The position numbers were made by a program, and so were the translations under genes. The notes beneath the pieces are model-generated. The model saw only the letters and a program-made list of their open reading frames with translations. It made no database searches and had not been told where the DNA came from. 64,000 nt of DNA from Muribaculum intestinale (GTDB lineage Bacteria > Bacteroidota > Bacteroidia > Bacteroidales > Muribaculaceae): assembly GCF_002201515.1 (NCBI RefSeq), contig NZ_CP021421.1:1798001-1862000 (forward strand), in the 5' to 3' direction. Position 1 is the stretch's first letter; every line of letters begins with the position of its first letter. Shown here piece after piece: positions 44,156 through 47,700 of this stretch.

Positions 44156-45670
44156 ATGGCAAAGAAAGCACTTCTTATGATACTCGACGGATGGGGCATC
44201 GGCAACCATTCGAAGGGTGACGTGATATTCAACACACCTACGCCCTATTGGGACTATCTTGTAAGCACATATCCTCATTCACAGCTTCAGGCATCGGGAG
44301 AGAATGTAGGTCTGCCCGACGGGCAGATGGGCAACTCGGAGGTCGGCCATCTTAATATCGGTGCAGGACGCGTGGTATATCAGGACCTTGTGAAAATCAA
44401 CAAGGCATGCAAGGACGGCTCGATACTTAAGAATCCAGAAATAGTAAACGCATTCGGCTATGCACGCGACAACAGAAAGGCCATACACTTCATGGGCCTG
44501 ACTTCAAATGGCGGTGTACACTCTTCGCTTGACCATCTTTTTGCTTTGTGCGACATAGCCAAGGAGTATGGCTTGGAGAAAGTATATATCCACTGCTTTA
44601 TGGATGGCCGTGACACAGACCCCCGTAGCGGAAAGGGATTTATCGAGGAACTTGAAGCCCATTGCGCCAAATCGACCGGAAAGATTGCCTCGATTATCGG
44701 TCGCTATTATGCCATGGACCGCGACAAGCGCTGGGAGCGTGTCAAGGAGGCTTATGACCTGCTTGTAAACGGTGTGGGCAAAAAGAGCTCTGATATGGTA
44801 AAAGCCATGCAGGAGTCGTATGAAGCCGATGTCACCGACGAGTTTGTTAAGCCGATTGTAAACGAGACTGTCGACGGGACAATCAAAGATGGCGATGCTG
44901 TAATCTTCTTCAACTATCGCAATGACCGTGCCAAGGAGCTGACAACCGTACTTACTCAGCATGATATGCCTGAGGCCGGAATGCACACAATTCCCAATCT
45001 GCAATATTATTGCATGACTCCATATGATGCATCGTTTACAGGTGTGCATATTCTTTTCGACAAAGAGAATGTGACCAACACTCTGGGCGAGTATCTTTCA
45101 TCGCTTGACAAGAAGCAGCTCCATATCGCTGAGACAGAGAAGTATGCCCATGTGACATTCTTCTTCAATGGAGGTCGTGAGGCCCCCTACGAGGGTGAGG
45201 AGCGCATACTTGTGGCATCGCCCAAGGTAGCCACTTACGACCTCAAGCCTGAAATGAGCGCCTATGAGGTGAAGGACAAACTTGTGGATGCAATCAAGAG
45301 CCGTGAATATGACTTTATAGTTGTCAACTATGCTAACGGCGACATGGTGGGCCATACCGGTGTGTATGAGGCTATAGAGAAAGCCGTAAAGGCGGTCGAC
45401 GAGTGTGTCAAGGACACCGTTGAAGCTGCAAAGGCTGCCGATTATGAGGTCATCATTATTGCTGATCATGGTAATGCAGACAATGCAATCAATGCTGACG
45501 GCACTCCTAATACTGCACATTCGCTCAACCCTGTGCCCTGTATCTATGTGACAGAGCGCAAGGATGCACATGTGGAGGATGGTCGTCTGGCGGATGTGGC
45601 GCCCACTATCCTAAAGATTATGGGTATAGCTCAGCCTTCGGAAATGACCGGCCATGCTTTGATTGGCTGA
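44156..45670 (+). CDS. gpmI: 2,3-bisphosphoglycerate-independent phosphoglycerate mutase
   Basis: A 504-residue manganese-dependent enzyme of glycolysis that interconverts 3- and 2-phosphoglycerate. The alkaline-phosphatase-like metal site is complete: Asp11 in [10 protein letters not shown], the phospho-serine Ser61 in [16 protein letters not shown], and [12 protein letters not shown] and TAHSLNPVP near the end. The inserted transferase domain (about 80-310) has [22 protein letters not shown] and GRYYAMDRD. Length is normal. It is a single-gene unit with its own promoter and terminator. Confidence 0.97.
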
Positions 45671-45736: not shown

Positions 45737-45884
45737 ATGGCAATATTCTTGAGGATATAATCGGGCGATATGGCATAAGTTGCCGTTGGAAGTCGGTTTG
45801 CTGGCAAATTGCTGGATTGAACTGCATATTTTTGTTTTGTACTATAAAATATTGTTAAAAGTATAGCAATTTGTATGAGAATAT

Positions 45885-45915
45885 TTTGTGGGATATCATT
45901 AAATGCTTAAATTTG
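45885..45915 (+). promoter_or_regulatory. Promoter of a candidate small RNA
   Basis: TTTG (45885-45888), 19 bases, TAAATTTG (45908-45915): an exact consensus promoter with no protein gene behind it. The expected start is near 45921. Confidence 0.72.
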
Positions 45916-45920
45916 CATCG

Positions 45921-45987
45921 TGTTTTTCATGGTATTAGATTTAAGGTTAACTAAGATTGATTGTCGGGATGACAATCAATTTTTTTT
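45921..45987 (+). ncRNA. Candidate small RNA of about 67 nt
   Basis: Between a consensus promoter and a strong intrinsic terminator lies a unit of about 67 bases with no credible reading frame. The terminator is ATTGATTGTC / GACAATCAAT (45956-45965, 45971-45980), a perfect ten-base stem with GGGAT loop, followed by seven more T residues; weaker pairs can extend the stem by three. The 35 bases before the hairpin are A/T-rich and could be a single-stranded pairing region. An ATG at about 45930 opens a 24-codon frame that runs through the terminator and is unlikely to be used. Function is unknown. The next gene on either side is gpmI (with its own terminator) and the radical SAM gene. Confidence 0.55.
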
Positions 45988-46258
45988 ATACCTTTATGTC
46001 TGATTTGATGATGCGTTATTTTATGGCATCATATATGTGCTCCGACGGCAGATATTTTTGATCGGAATATTTTTATGAGAGTTAGTTATTTTGCATCGAT
46101 ATCCATATGTGCATTAACAGATAGACACATATGTAAATCTGGTGACATGGATGTGTAATTATGCACGGCTTGATATGGGTGTTGCCTGTATCAGATATAT
46201 TATTGCCTTTTTTGCTTGTAATAAATCTATTTCGGGGCATTCTCTCACAAATTTTTGC
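45988..46258. other. A/T-rich intergenic stretch with one hairpin
   Basis: Nothing gene-like is supported here. One inverted repeat is visible, CATATGTG (46104-46111) and CACATATG (46126-46133), with a 14-base spacer and no T-tract. Short frames of 66-74 codons on both strands have no recognisable composition or start signals. Confidence 0.4.
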
Positions 46259-46266
46259 TATCTTTG
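46259..46266 (+). promoter_or_regulatory. Promoter -7 element of the structured leader / radical SAM gene
   Basis: TATCTTTG, exact TAnnTTTG match. The -33 region is poor. The expected start is near 46272, about 400 bases before the radical SAM ATG. Confidence 0.55.
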
Positions 46267-46271
46267 TGTAG

Positions 46272-46671
46272 TCGGCAGGGAGAAATCTGTTGACTGCAAG
46301 AGGCATTTAGCTTGGTTCTTTATTCTGAAATCGCCAATTTAAGAATTAATCGAAGAACAGGAAGTGAGGAATGCCCCTTTGCTGTGTTCGTATATGTTTG
46401 TGAGCACCCGGTAACGGATGCTCTAACGCCATACACGAGAACGGCGTGGGGTACGTGTATTTTCTCCAATCCTTTCGATTAGCGTGTTTGGCGATACGTA
46501 GAATAAGAGGATTCGGGCAAAATCGGGCTCCGCGCCTTTTGTATATTATCTTAACCGCTGAACCGGGTGGAGCTCATAGGCATGATTACTGCATATGAGA
46601 TTATCGTTGTTGGCAATGTTTCACCTGGATGTCGCAGGTTTGGGTTTGGGAACCGAATTCAGGTATGAGCC
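46272..46671 (+). ncRNA. Long structured leader or independent RNA upstream of the radical SAM gene
   Basis: About 400 bases without a credible reading frame but with many complementary segments. (a) GTCGGCAG/CTGTTGAC (46271-46278, 46287-46294), eight pairs, eight-base loop. (b) A long-range closing stem TTAATCGAA...AGGA (46346-46362) with TCCT...TTCGATTAG (46470-46482). (c) Inside it, GAGCA/TGCTC around CCCGGTAACGGA, and ACGCC/GGCGT. (d) GGGCTCCGC with GTGGAGCTC (about 46525-46533, 46567-46575). (e) ACCTG/CAGGT (46624-46640) near the gene start. Base composition changes sharply from the A/T-rich stretch upstream to mixed composition here, as in functional RNAs. I compared it with tmRNA, RNase P, SRP RNA, cobalamin, TPP and SAM riboswitch cores from memory and found no convincing match. 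Confidence 0.5.
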
Positions 46672-47700
46672 ATGAACATATACCGGATATTGCATTTGGT
46701 AGCGTCAAGGAGAATTCCGGCATCTGTGAAACTTCTTGGTTTATGTATGATGCATCTTGTCGGACGGCGCACTATCGGAATATTCATGGATCCTGTTCTT
46801 TCGTGTAATCTACGTTGTAGAATGTGTTATTTCAGTGATGCTGAAAAACGGAAGTCGATGCATGGCATGATAACAGGAAGCCGCCTTGATGCAGTAGCAC
46901 GTGCGCTGTATCCACGTGCGTTGAAACTACAGATAGGATGTGGCGCCGAACCTACATTATATCGAAATCTTGCCGGGATTGTAAGGCAGGGACATGCTTA
47001 CGGTATCCCCTACATATCGCTAACTACCAACGGTCAGTTGATTGCCTCCGGCTATGTGTCGCTTATAGATCTGGTGAGGGCCGGTCTGAATGAAATAACC
47101 GTCTCGGTACATGGTACGAGTCGGAAAATTTATGAAGAAATGATGCTGGGGGCCACATTTGATCGTCTGTCAGGGCTGATTGATTGCTTGATTGACGTTA
47201 AGAGTGAATTCCCGGGCTTTAAAATACGGATTAACTACACTGTGAATTCAATGAATATGTATGATTTGCAGGGTGATTGTTTCTGGACGCTATGGAAAGG
47301 GCTTGAACTTGATATAGTGCAGCTACGTCCTGTGCAGGATATGGGGCGCACGGATTGGAATGATTTTGATATGGTATCTCTGAAAGAGAACTATGACAGC
47401 ACTATCGGCAATATAATCAGAGGATGCAAGGAGCGTGGGATTACATGTATAGCTCCTGGCAGAGAACAGCTTGATGAGGTGGCTACATTGCAGGATGGTG
47501 TGTCATCGGTGATTGAGGACATTACGTACTGTTATGTGAGTCCGGAGGAATGTTATAAGAGTGATTTCAATCCCGATAATGATACATATGAGAGCTATCA
47601 TAGACGAAATGCTACTGCAATAAAGTTGCTTAAGTCGGTATGGAGTCGAAAGGAACGTATGCGTAATGCAAGCAAAAAACTGAATTATGATTTGAAGTGA
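46672..47700 (+). CDS. Radical SAM protein of unknown substrate
   Basis: A 342-residue enzyme with the canonical cluster motif CNLRCRMCYF (Cys45, Cys49, Cys52) that binds the [4Fe-4S] cluster and S-adenosylmethionine. After it come a GGE-like segment replaced by QIGCGAEPTLYR, ISLTTNGQLI and EITVSVHGTSRKIYEEMM, all usual in the SAM barrel of MoaA/SPASM-type proteins. The C-terminal region has only two close cysteines (YCYVSPEECY), so a full SPASM domain is missing. A basic, hydrophobic N-terminus of about 35 residues may contact the membrane. It follows a 400-base structured leader and has no operon partner, so the target peptide or molecule is unknown. Confidence 0.88.
   Translation: MNIYRILHLVASRRIPASVKLLGLCMMHLVGRRTIGIFMDPVLSCNLRCRMCYFSDAEKRKSMHGMITGSRLDAVARALYPRALKLQIGCGAEPTLYRNLAGIVRQGHAYGIPYISLTTNGQLIASGYVSLIDLVRAGLNEITVSVHGTSRKIYEEMMLGATFDRLSGLIDCLIDVKSEFPGFKIRINYTVNSMNMYDLQGDCFWTLWKGLELDIVQLRPVQDMGRTDWNDFDMVSLKENYDSTIGNIIRGCKERGITCIAPGREQLDEVATLQDGVSSVIEDITYCYVSPEECYKSDFNPDNDTYESYHRRNATAIKLLKSVWSRKERMRNASKKLNYDLK

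Follow-up and report, generated by a model that had tools for sequence, protein, structure and literature searches.

Attenuator leaders and terminator riboswitches are known by a promoter, a structured leader with alternative pairings, a U-run, a close gene and tandem copies, the latter being a habit known from riboswitches. The RNA described here shares these features, the alternative pairings being putative, whereas its lack of an Rfam match, its two predicted kissing hairpins with strand exchange, and the fact that its pairing sequences can differ between copies of the same genome set it apart from the known attenuators and riboswitches. The GEMM (c-di-GMP) riboswitches are one RNA class that is found before many unrelated, often exported, proteins, and the present class likewise precedes such proteins. 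However, the GEMM fold is different from and smaller than that of this leader, and a cmscan of the leader matches no Rfam family. With 6S-Flavo RNA (RF01685) it has in common that both are Bacteroidota RNAs, but the present RNA is multi-copy and located ahead of genes. The put and EAR RNAs are antitermination RNAs that modify the polymerase. To our knowledge, few leader RNA classes have been described in the Bacteroidota; a 2017 study reportedly presented a set of 224 motifs.

Fremin and Bhatt (2021, PMC8040213) report the expressed 108 bp candidate HMP2_1881 of Bacteroidetes near radical SAM domains, and also palindromic Bacteroidetes candidates near TPR, RuvA and TonB genes. Going by description and not by sequence, these candidates are shorter than our RNA and may be fragments of the same class. 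A description of the class was not found in the literature searched, which included parts of PMC2864571 and PMC7366714, and an earlier description elsewhere is possible. The main texts of PMC11109978 and PMC8632094 do not mention Bacteroid, Parabacteroides, Prevotella or Porphyromonas. The general kind, a structured leader and likely attenuator, is already known. Since neither Rfam 15 nor the searched papers contain anything that matches the class, its fold and its private pairing addresses, we rate it as a new RNA class.

The window, i.e. the whole stretch of 64,000 nucleotides of Muribaculum intestinale DNA that was analysed, had been predicted to contain a structured leader, and this was confirmed, with an RNA family that is wider than the original prediction saw. 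The structured RNA extends from 46269 to about 46582 on the + strand. The region 46265-46671 folds with -143.6 kcal/mol as compared to -117.8 +/- 5.4 kcal/mol for shuffled sequences (z -4.8, 0 of 100 shuffles). The features are the following, all on the + strand.

46259-46266, +: promoter element TATCTTTG, recognised by its sequence and by TAnnTTTG upstream in relatives
46269-46295, +: 5' hairpin before the core, local fold -12.9 kcal/mol, 10 of 11 pairs
46302-46375, +: hairpin 1, consisting of Pa, Pb and the apical HP1
46302-46307 with 46370-46375, +: Pa, 6 of 6 pairs
46315-46319 with 46354-46358, +: Pb, 5 pairs as read from the letters
46327-46340, +: apical HP1, 3 of 3 pairs, with the kissing loop UCGCCAA at 46331-46337
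46320-46326 with 46500-46506, +: P2, 7 of 7 pairs
46331-46337 (UCGCCAA) with 46488-46494 (UUGGCGA), +: predicted kissing helix, 7 of 7 pairs
46347-46353 with 46475-46481, +: P5, 7 of 7 pairs
46390-46434, +: variable tip hairpin, located between the two main hairpins, 87.1% of cells paired in the family
46443-46536, +: hairpin 2, consisting of A:B, P6 and HP2; 46443-46552 folds with -39.9 kcal/mol
46443-46451 with 46528-46536, +: A:B, 9 of 9 pairs, 97.5% of cells paired in the family
46468-46473 with 46508-46513, +: P6, 6 of 6 pairs
46482-46485 with 46496-46499, +: HP2, 4 of 4 pairs
46537-46552, +: terminator-like U-rich run directly 3' of hairpin 2, supported by the U-run counts of relatives
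46567-46573, +: C element, complementary to B (46527-46533), 7 of 7 pairs, with 8 bases between it and the start codon ATG of the small ORF
46582-46668, +: 28-codon ORF MITAYEIIVVGNVSPGCRRFGFGNRIQV, possibly the first gene behind the leader, with a short counterpart in the close relative G009
46672-47700, +: radical SAM protein of 342 amino acids, Pfam PF04055 with 44.5 bits, over the cut-off

From 5' to 3', the order of the elements is promoter, optional hairpin, Pa, Pb, P2, HP1, P5, Pb', Pa' and tip, followed by A, P6, P5', HP2, P2', P6', B, U-run, C and start codon. The primary sequence is conserved across the family in Pa, A and B, and the 5' hairpin shows changes on both sides in a five-sequence alignment. 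The long-range stem proposed originally between 46346-46362 and 46470-46482 contains P5. Since the flanks of HP1 are connected with the flanks of HP2 through P2 and P5, the hairpins would be linked by two parallel strand-exchange helices. These would lie between two four-way junctions, like in a DNA double-crossover tile.

TAnnTTTG is the consensus of the Bacteroidota promoter element, and the claimed promoter fits it. The motif is also present upstream of the RNA in most relatives, namely in 86 of 93 copies, as compared to 12 with the motif on the opposite strand and 7 with it downstream, and in 54 of 73 copies of a second set, as compared to 7 and 5, respectively. The sharp change of composition that had been claimed was found to be gradual, since the G+C content rises over 45800-46499, from 27-34% at 45800-46099 to 37-38% at 46100-46399 and 52% at 46400-46499. 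The statement that the region has no credible reading frame can apply to the RNA itself at most, because the last ~90 bases contain the possible 28-codon ORF. It ends 3 nt ahead of the radical SAM start and may encode a peptide that serves this enzyme as precursor or leader. A relative likewise carries MTIAYESIIDGGVVSPCGRG behind its leader. The radical SAM protein matched none of 22 NCBIfam models at cut-off; below threshold it resembled several NCBIfam maturases, a prokaryotic viperin model and also PADLOC viperins. Near the leader is the ORF 44156-45670, which we take to be a phosphoglycerate-mutase-like gene, and the sRNA FopS (RF04319, 80.6 bits, Rfam) is located at 45920-45989, upstream of the leader promoter.

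The view of a new structured RNA, distinct from the known riboswitches and from tmRNA, RNase P and SRP RNA, was supported. At the gathering threshold, Rfam 15 contains no family, 6S included, that matches inside the interval, and at a relaxed level the region gave three matches, the best with an E value of 0.085 and all far under the cut-offs. Relatives were scanned in three groups (4 relatives, 18 loci and 20 loci) and the RNA itself had no match; the rRNA, tRNA and FopS matches seen in the window and in these groups were all outside of it. The 6S RNA model RF00013 gave no match in the window or in the scanned loci, and 6S-Flavo was rejected because a genome-wide search of the own genome at E<=1 gave 0 matches and the locus had none either. 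Also rejected were tmRNA, RNase P and SRP RNA, for which neither ARAGORN nor Rfam gave a match.

The distribution of the RNA was analysed with sequence searches, pattern scans and covariance models. When the RNA of the window was used as query, blastn gave matches in 5 of 99 genomes. A search with another member matched 34 of 397 family genomes at E<=1e-3, where the weakest matches were short fragments. Among the first four relatives examined, only the closest (G009) has kept the radical SAM gene. A two-anchor pattern scan of named genomes gave at least 119 loci, 80 of them listed. Support by nhmmer at 19 bits or more was obtained for 86 of the loci L036-L179, and the carriers supported in this way include Bacteroides, Parabacteroides, Coprobacter, Butyricimonas, Odoribacter, Barnesiella, Prevotellaceae and others.

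Two covariance models were built, R1 from 30 Muribaculaceae-type sequences and R2 from 60 diverse sequences. The window sits in both seeds, and the scores that it obtains with these models therefore cannot count as independent evidence. R1 had 109 matches in 100 sources. Ten of these matches were taken as opposite-strand echoes and dropped, as were 7 in a later set. Counting the own genome, R1 matched 126 of 197 Muribaculaceae genomes at E<=1e-3 with a top copy number of at least 8, and R2 matched 71 of 198 Bacteroidales genomes at E<=1e-4 with a top copy number of at least 10, and 12 of 296 phylum-sampled genomes. The copy numbers are minimum values because no more than 7 or 10 candidates were scored in each genome. 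For the specificity of R2, 20 listed pattern loci with clearly non-Bacteroidota titles were used. Eighteen had no match, and the remaining two, L109 and L111, match R1 and are taken as binning errors. No R2 match was obtained for L075 (Muribaculaceae) and two Pedobacter loci. Four of 25 pattern-positive contigs of a viral collection (L163, L167, L174 and L177) were matched by R2. In L069, L104 and L149 two leader copies each were found in tandem on the same strand, and the upstream copies of L104 and L149 have the compensated kissing loop UCGGCAA/UUGCCGA. The own genome carries a second, very different copy (L253 2851-3147, G000:C1:1377350-1377646) with the kissing loops UUCUCGCA/UGCGAGAA.

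A comparison of the homologues showed covarying stems and a conserved fold, and supports a structure in which a 7-bp helix between the loops of two hairpins would form a kiss, with strand exchange through P2 and P5. When all helices were scanned on 60 sequences that had been aligned without regard to structure, pairs with changes on both sides were most numerous in P2 (8 of 9), Pb (7 of 8) and P6 (6 of 7), followed by Pb:P6' of an alternative rod fold (5 of 5), A:B (4 of 8) and Pa (3 of 6). When the two-hairpin fold was evaluated on 60 aligned sequences, 36 of 49 pairs changed on both sides (0 of 500 shuffles), including 7 of 7 counted pairs in P2 and 6 of 7 in Pb. Paired cells amounted to 91.8%, compared to 80.8% in shuffled and 39-49% in slid versions; none of the 500 shuffles reached any of the measures, and relatedness is controlled by the slid versions only. 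RNAalifold on the alignment A4 gave a weak nested structure, as is expected if the real structure is pseudoknotted.

The helices were also analysed by a swap test, in which the pairing of a strand with its own partner is ranked against its pairing with the partners of other sequences. With 93 sequences (120 anchored copies minus near-duplicates), 44 were in the top 5% for P2, 55 for P5, 40 for Pb, 32 for A:B and 11 for Pa, where 4.7 are expected. With 29 further sequences, those of a set of 73 copies that have fixed anchor words, the numbers were 24 for P2, 24 for P5, 13 for Pb and 7 for P6, where 1.5 are expected and the controls gave 0, 6 (upstream flank against B) and 0. Pa (2) and A:B (1) gave no signal in these 29 sequences. 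P5 was missed by the column scan, we think because MAFFT misaligned it, and rests on the swap tests and the paralogue set described below.

The kissing loops were tested in all 73 further copies. The standard loops UCGCCAA and UUGGCGA were present in 36 of them and 37 differed. Of these 37, 35 keep a perfect own complement of at least 7 nt in the HP2 loop region, as compared to 6.2% with swapped partners. Four of the 73 copies overlap earlier sets. When these and near-duplicates were removed, 65 copies remained, of which 37 had non-standard loops, again with 35 complements and 6.2%.

The same strands can also form a nested rod, in which Pa pairs with B, Pb with P6', Pb' with P6 and Pa' with A. 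The rod keeps 88.7% of the cells paired and has a covariation score of 0.432, compared to 0.382 for the two-hairpin fold, and its helix Pb:P6' ranks fourth in the unbiased scan, above A:B. In the swap test with 29 sequences, the rod pairs gave 17 (Pa':A), 11 (Pb':P6), 1 (Pb:P6') and 2 (Pa:B), where 1.5 are expected, and the first two signals are not clean because their search intervals overlap the tip and P5. Since the rod is possible nearly everywhere, a switch between the rod and the two-hairpin fold is plausible.

The position of the RNA relative to genes was then considered. The next gene within 400 nt was on the same strand in 74 of 79 cases in the first set and in 60 of 62 in the second, leaving 5 and 2 near genes, respectively, on the opposite strand. 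Pooled with ATG-only ORFs and a limit of 350 nt, 135 of 142 were on the same strand (binomial p 7.5e-32), and 121 of 128 when near-duplicates were removed. The upstream genes were less biased, with 56 to 28 and 46 to 22, all ORFs having been called mechanically. These results support a cis-acting 5' leader. The original prediction had offered a cis-regulatory RNA for the radical SAM gene or a free-standing RNA. The strand bias supports the leader, whereas the radical SAM target is only local. The own-genome copy in L253 precedes a BspA-type LRR protein and the relatives are found before diverse genes, which shows that the leader is not specific for radical SAM genes. A riboswitch specific for radical SAM was rejected since relatives precede many unrelated genes.

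The downstream proteins were scanned in two sets of 72 and 58, from which the near-duplicates L101, L037, L266 and L256 were left out and to which the protein of the window was added. They match 55 and 44 Pfam families. The commonest is BspA-type LRR_5 with 7 of 72 and 7 of 58, five of the 58 being paralogues of the genome G844, followed by Dynamin_N with 4 of 72 and then export, TonB and secretion-tail domains. Among the 25 commonest families of either tally no shared pathway was apparent. A type III toxin-antitoxin RNA is a repeat RNA before one toxin family, and it was rejected because no toxin family dominates among the 25 commonest of both sets. Many of the ORFs downstream of the leader are short. 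Exported proteins were in excess, with 79 of 135 compared to 162 of 764 in the control, and with 61 of 102 compared to 131 of 543 for ORFs of at least 150 amino acids, where export was called by crude rules on the sequence, near-duplicates are still present in the sets and the control includes spurious ORFs. Dynamin- or GTPase-like genes were seen behind the leader in L112 (1419-3230) and L074 (5509-6606), with weak matches to LeoA/LeoBC and to another candidate defence family.

The 3' end of the leader resembles a terminator. A GC-rich hairpin, the A:B stem, is located directly before the U-run, as in transcription attenuators. At least 5 U in 8 nt were found in 65 of 73 relatives, compared to 4 of 73 at a control site, with a mean content of 6.1 and 2.1 U per 8 nt, respectively. 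Without near-duplicates, the numbers were 58 of 65 and 3 at the control. The pairing of B with C was tested in 69 copies, i.e. the 73 without near-duplicates. In the swap test 18 of the 69 were in the top 5%, where 3.5 are expected and the search interval had been set after looking at the motif position, and a 6-nt run was present in 24 of 69, compared to 8.8% with swapped partners. With an interval too far downstream for the C element, 6 of 93 were in the top 5% (4.7 expected). The distance from B to the start was 58-60 nt in 12 of 60.

Taken together, we give slightly better than even chances to the view that the RNA belongs to a new class of cis-acting 5' leaders of the Bacteroidota and works as a transcription attenuator. 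The comparison of relatives supports the promoter motif, the fold, the U-run, the close same-strand gene and the unrelated downstream genes, whereas termination, regulation and an effector are proposals. Judged from these sequences, transcription attenuation would be the likeliest mechanism of the leader. Hairpin 1 would fold first. Hairpin 2, with its base A:B on the U-run, would then act as an intrinsic terminator and lead to a short transcript. An effector, or the kinetics of the kissing and strand-exchange fold, may set how often the polymerase reads through. In the read-through RNA, B could exchange its partner A for C, which is located shortly upstream of the start codon, possibly adding a second, translational layer. 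As C is transcribed after the U-run, B:C cannot be a classical antiterminator. The many target genes and the excess of exported and envelope proteins suggest that the class should answer a general signal and not the product of one gene. The hypervariable P2 and P5 are not required by an attenuator, and this counts against the proposal. The results in favour of the rod, the moderate support for B:C and the few near genes on the opposite strand likewise speak against it.

The variation of P2 and P5 was most evident in the genome G844, which has five leaders before LRR-type or related exported proteins. The five are near-identical from promoter to ATG save for P2 and P5, where 21 of 33 columns are variable, whereas among the ungapped columns elsewhere 22 of 268 are (Fisher p 1.3e-12). 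Despite the sequence differences, P2 and P5 are each paired with 8 of 8 in every copy, and the P2 and P5 types are combined in a shuffled fashion among the copies. Own and cross pairing of the loop regions were compared for 50 copies of 9 genomes. In the best 30 paralogue pairs, those most alike outside the loops (77-92%), the own pairing was stronger in 29. The exception is L310/L311 in G066, which cross-pair as well as self-pair. A further exception is the 5' P5 strand of L234/L236, which can pair fully with the 3' strand of L233 via G-U. Tentatively, and with somewhat less than even confidence, we suggest that the class is self-addressed, each RNA having a private P2, P5 and often private kissing loops by which its two hairpins would recognise each other in preference to the hairpins of paralogues in the same cell. 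As the spacers are almost unchanged in G844, neutral drift would by itself be a poor explanation there; recombination with unsampled donors is an alternative source of the variation.

Other explanations have to be weighed against an attenuator. The kissing core could bind a common metabolite or second messenger, as a riboswitch with a broad regulon that acts mainly on translation through B:C and perhaps by switching folds. The complex conserved fold and its second possible form, the tandem copies, the breadth of the regulon and the position of B:C next to the start codon would all suit such a riboswitch. However, the kissing loops and P2/P5 show little constraint on their sequence and the 25 commonest downstream families per tally have no pathway in common, and we regard it as unlikely. 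A free-standing, trans-acting small RNA gene that has its own promoter and terminator, ends near 46552 and merely adjoins genes is also rather improbable. It gains from the promoter motif and the U-run, which would make a complete unit with its own terminator-like end, and from same-genome copies that differ in their pairing sequences, as pairing in trans would need, but the same-strand bias (121 of 128 without near-duplicates) and the moderately supported B:C pairing, which reaches past the U-run, argue against it.

The long leader with two hairpins, the diverse genes and the conserved primary sequence in Pa, A and B are reminiscent of a polymerase-modifying antitermination RNA of the put or EAR kind, or of a protein-binding leader. 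Since the element itself ends in a U-run and many of the downstream ORFs are short, this is very unlikely. We see hardly any chance for an element that acts as DNA, such as the end of a mobile cassette or an invertible segment, whose inverted repeats merely resemble RNA stems. Its distribution is patchy, multi-copy and near-palindromic, and the 10 and 7 opposite-strand matches were only taken as echoes of the same copy. On the other hand, the covariation includes G-U pairs, the crossing helices have a conserved order, the promoter and the U-run give a polarity, the genes are biased to one side, and no recombinase was found among the 25 commonest downstream Pfam families of either tally.

The Bacteroidota are a dominant gut phylum, and the leader class is frequent in the Muribaculaceae and Bacteroidales, often before envelope or exported proteins that meet the surroundings. 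The class looks like a widespread gene-control device of the Bacteroidota. If the private addresses are true, the leaders would be insulated switches for families of surface or exported proteins, such as the BspA-LRR paralogues, and selection or recombination would have changed the address more quickly than other parts of the RNA. With such addresses, it can be tested how structured RNAs that are paralogues within one cell are kept from folding with each other.
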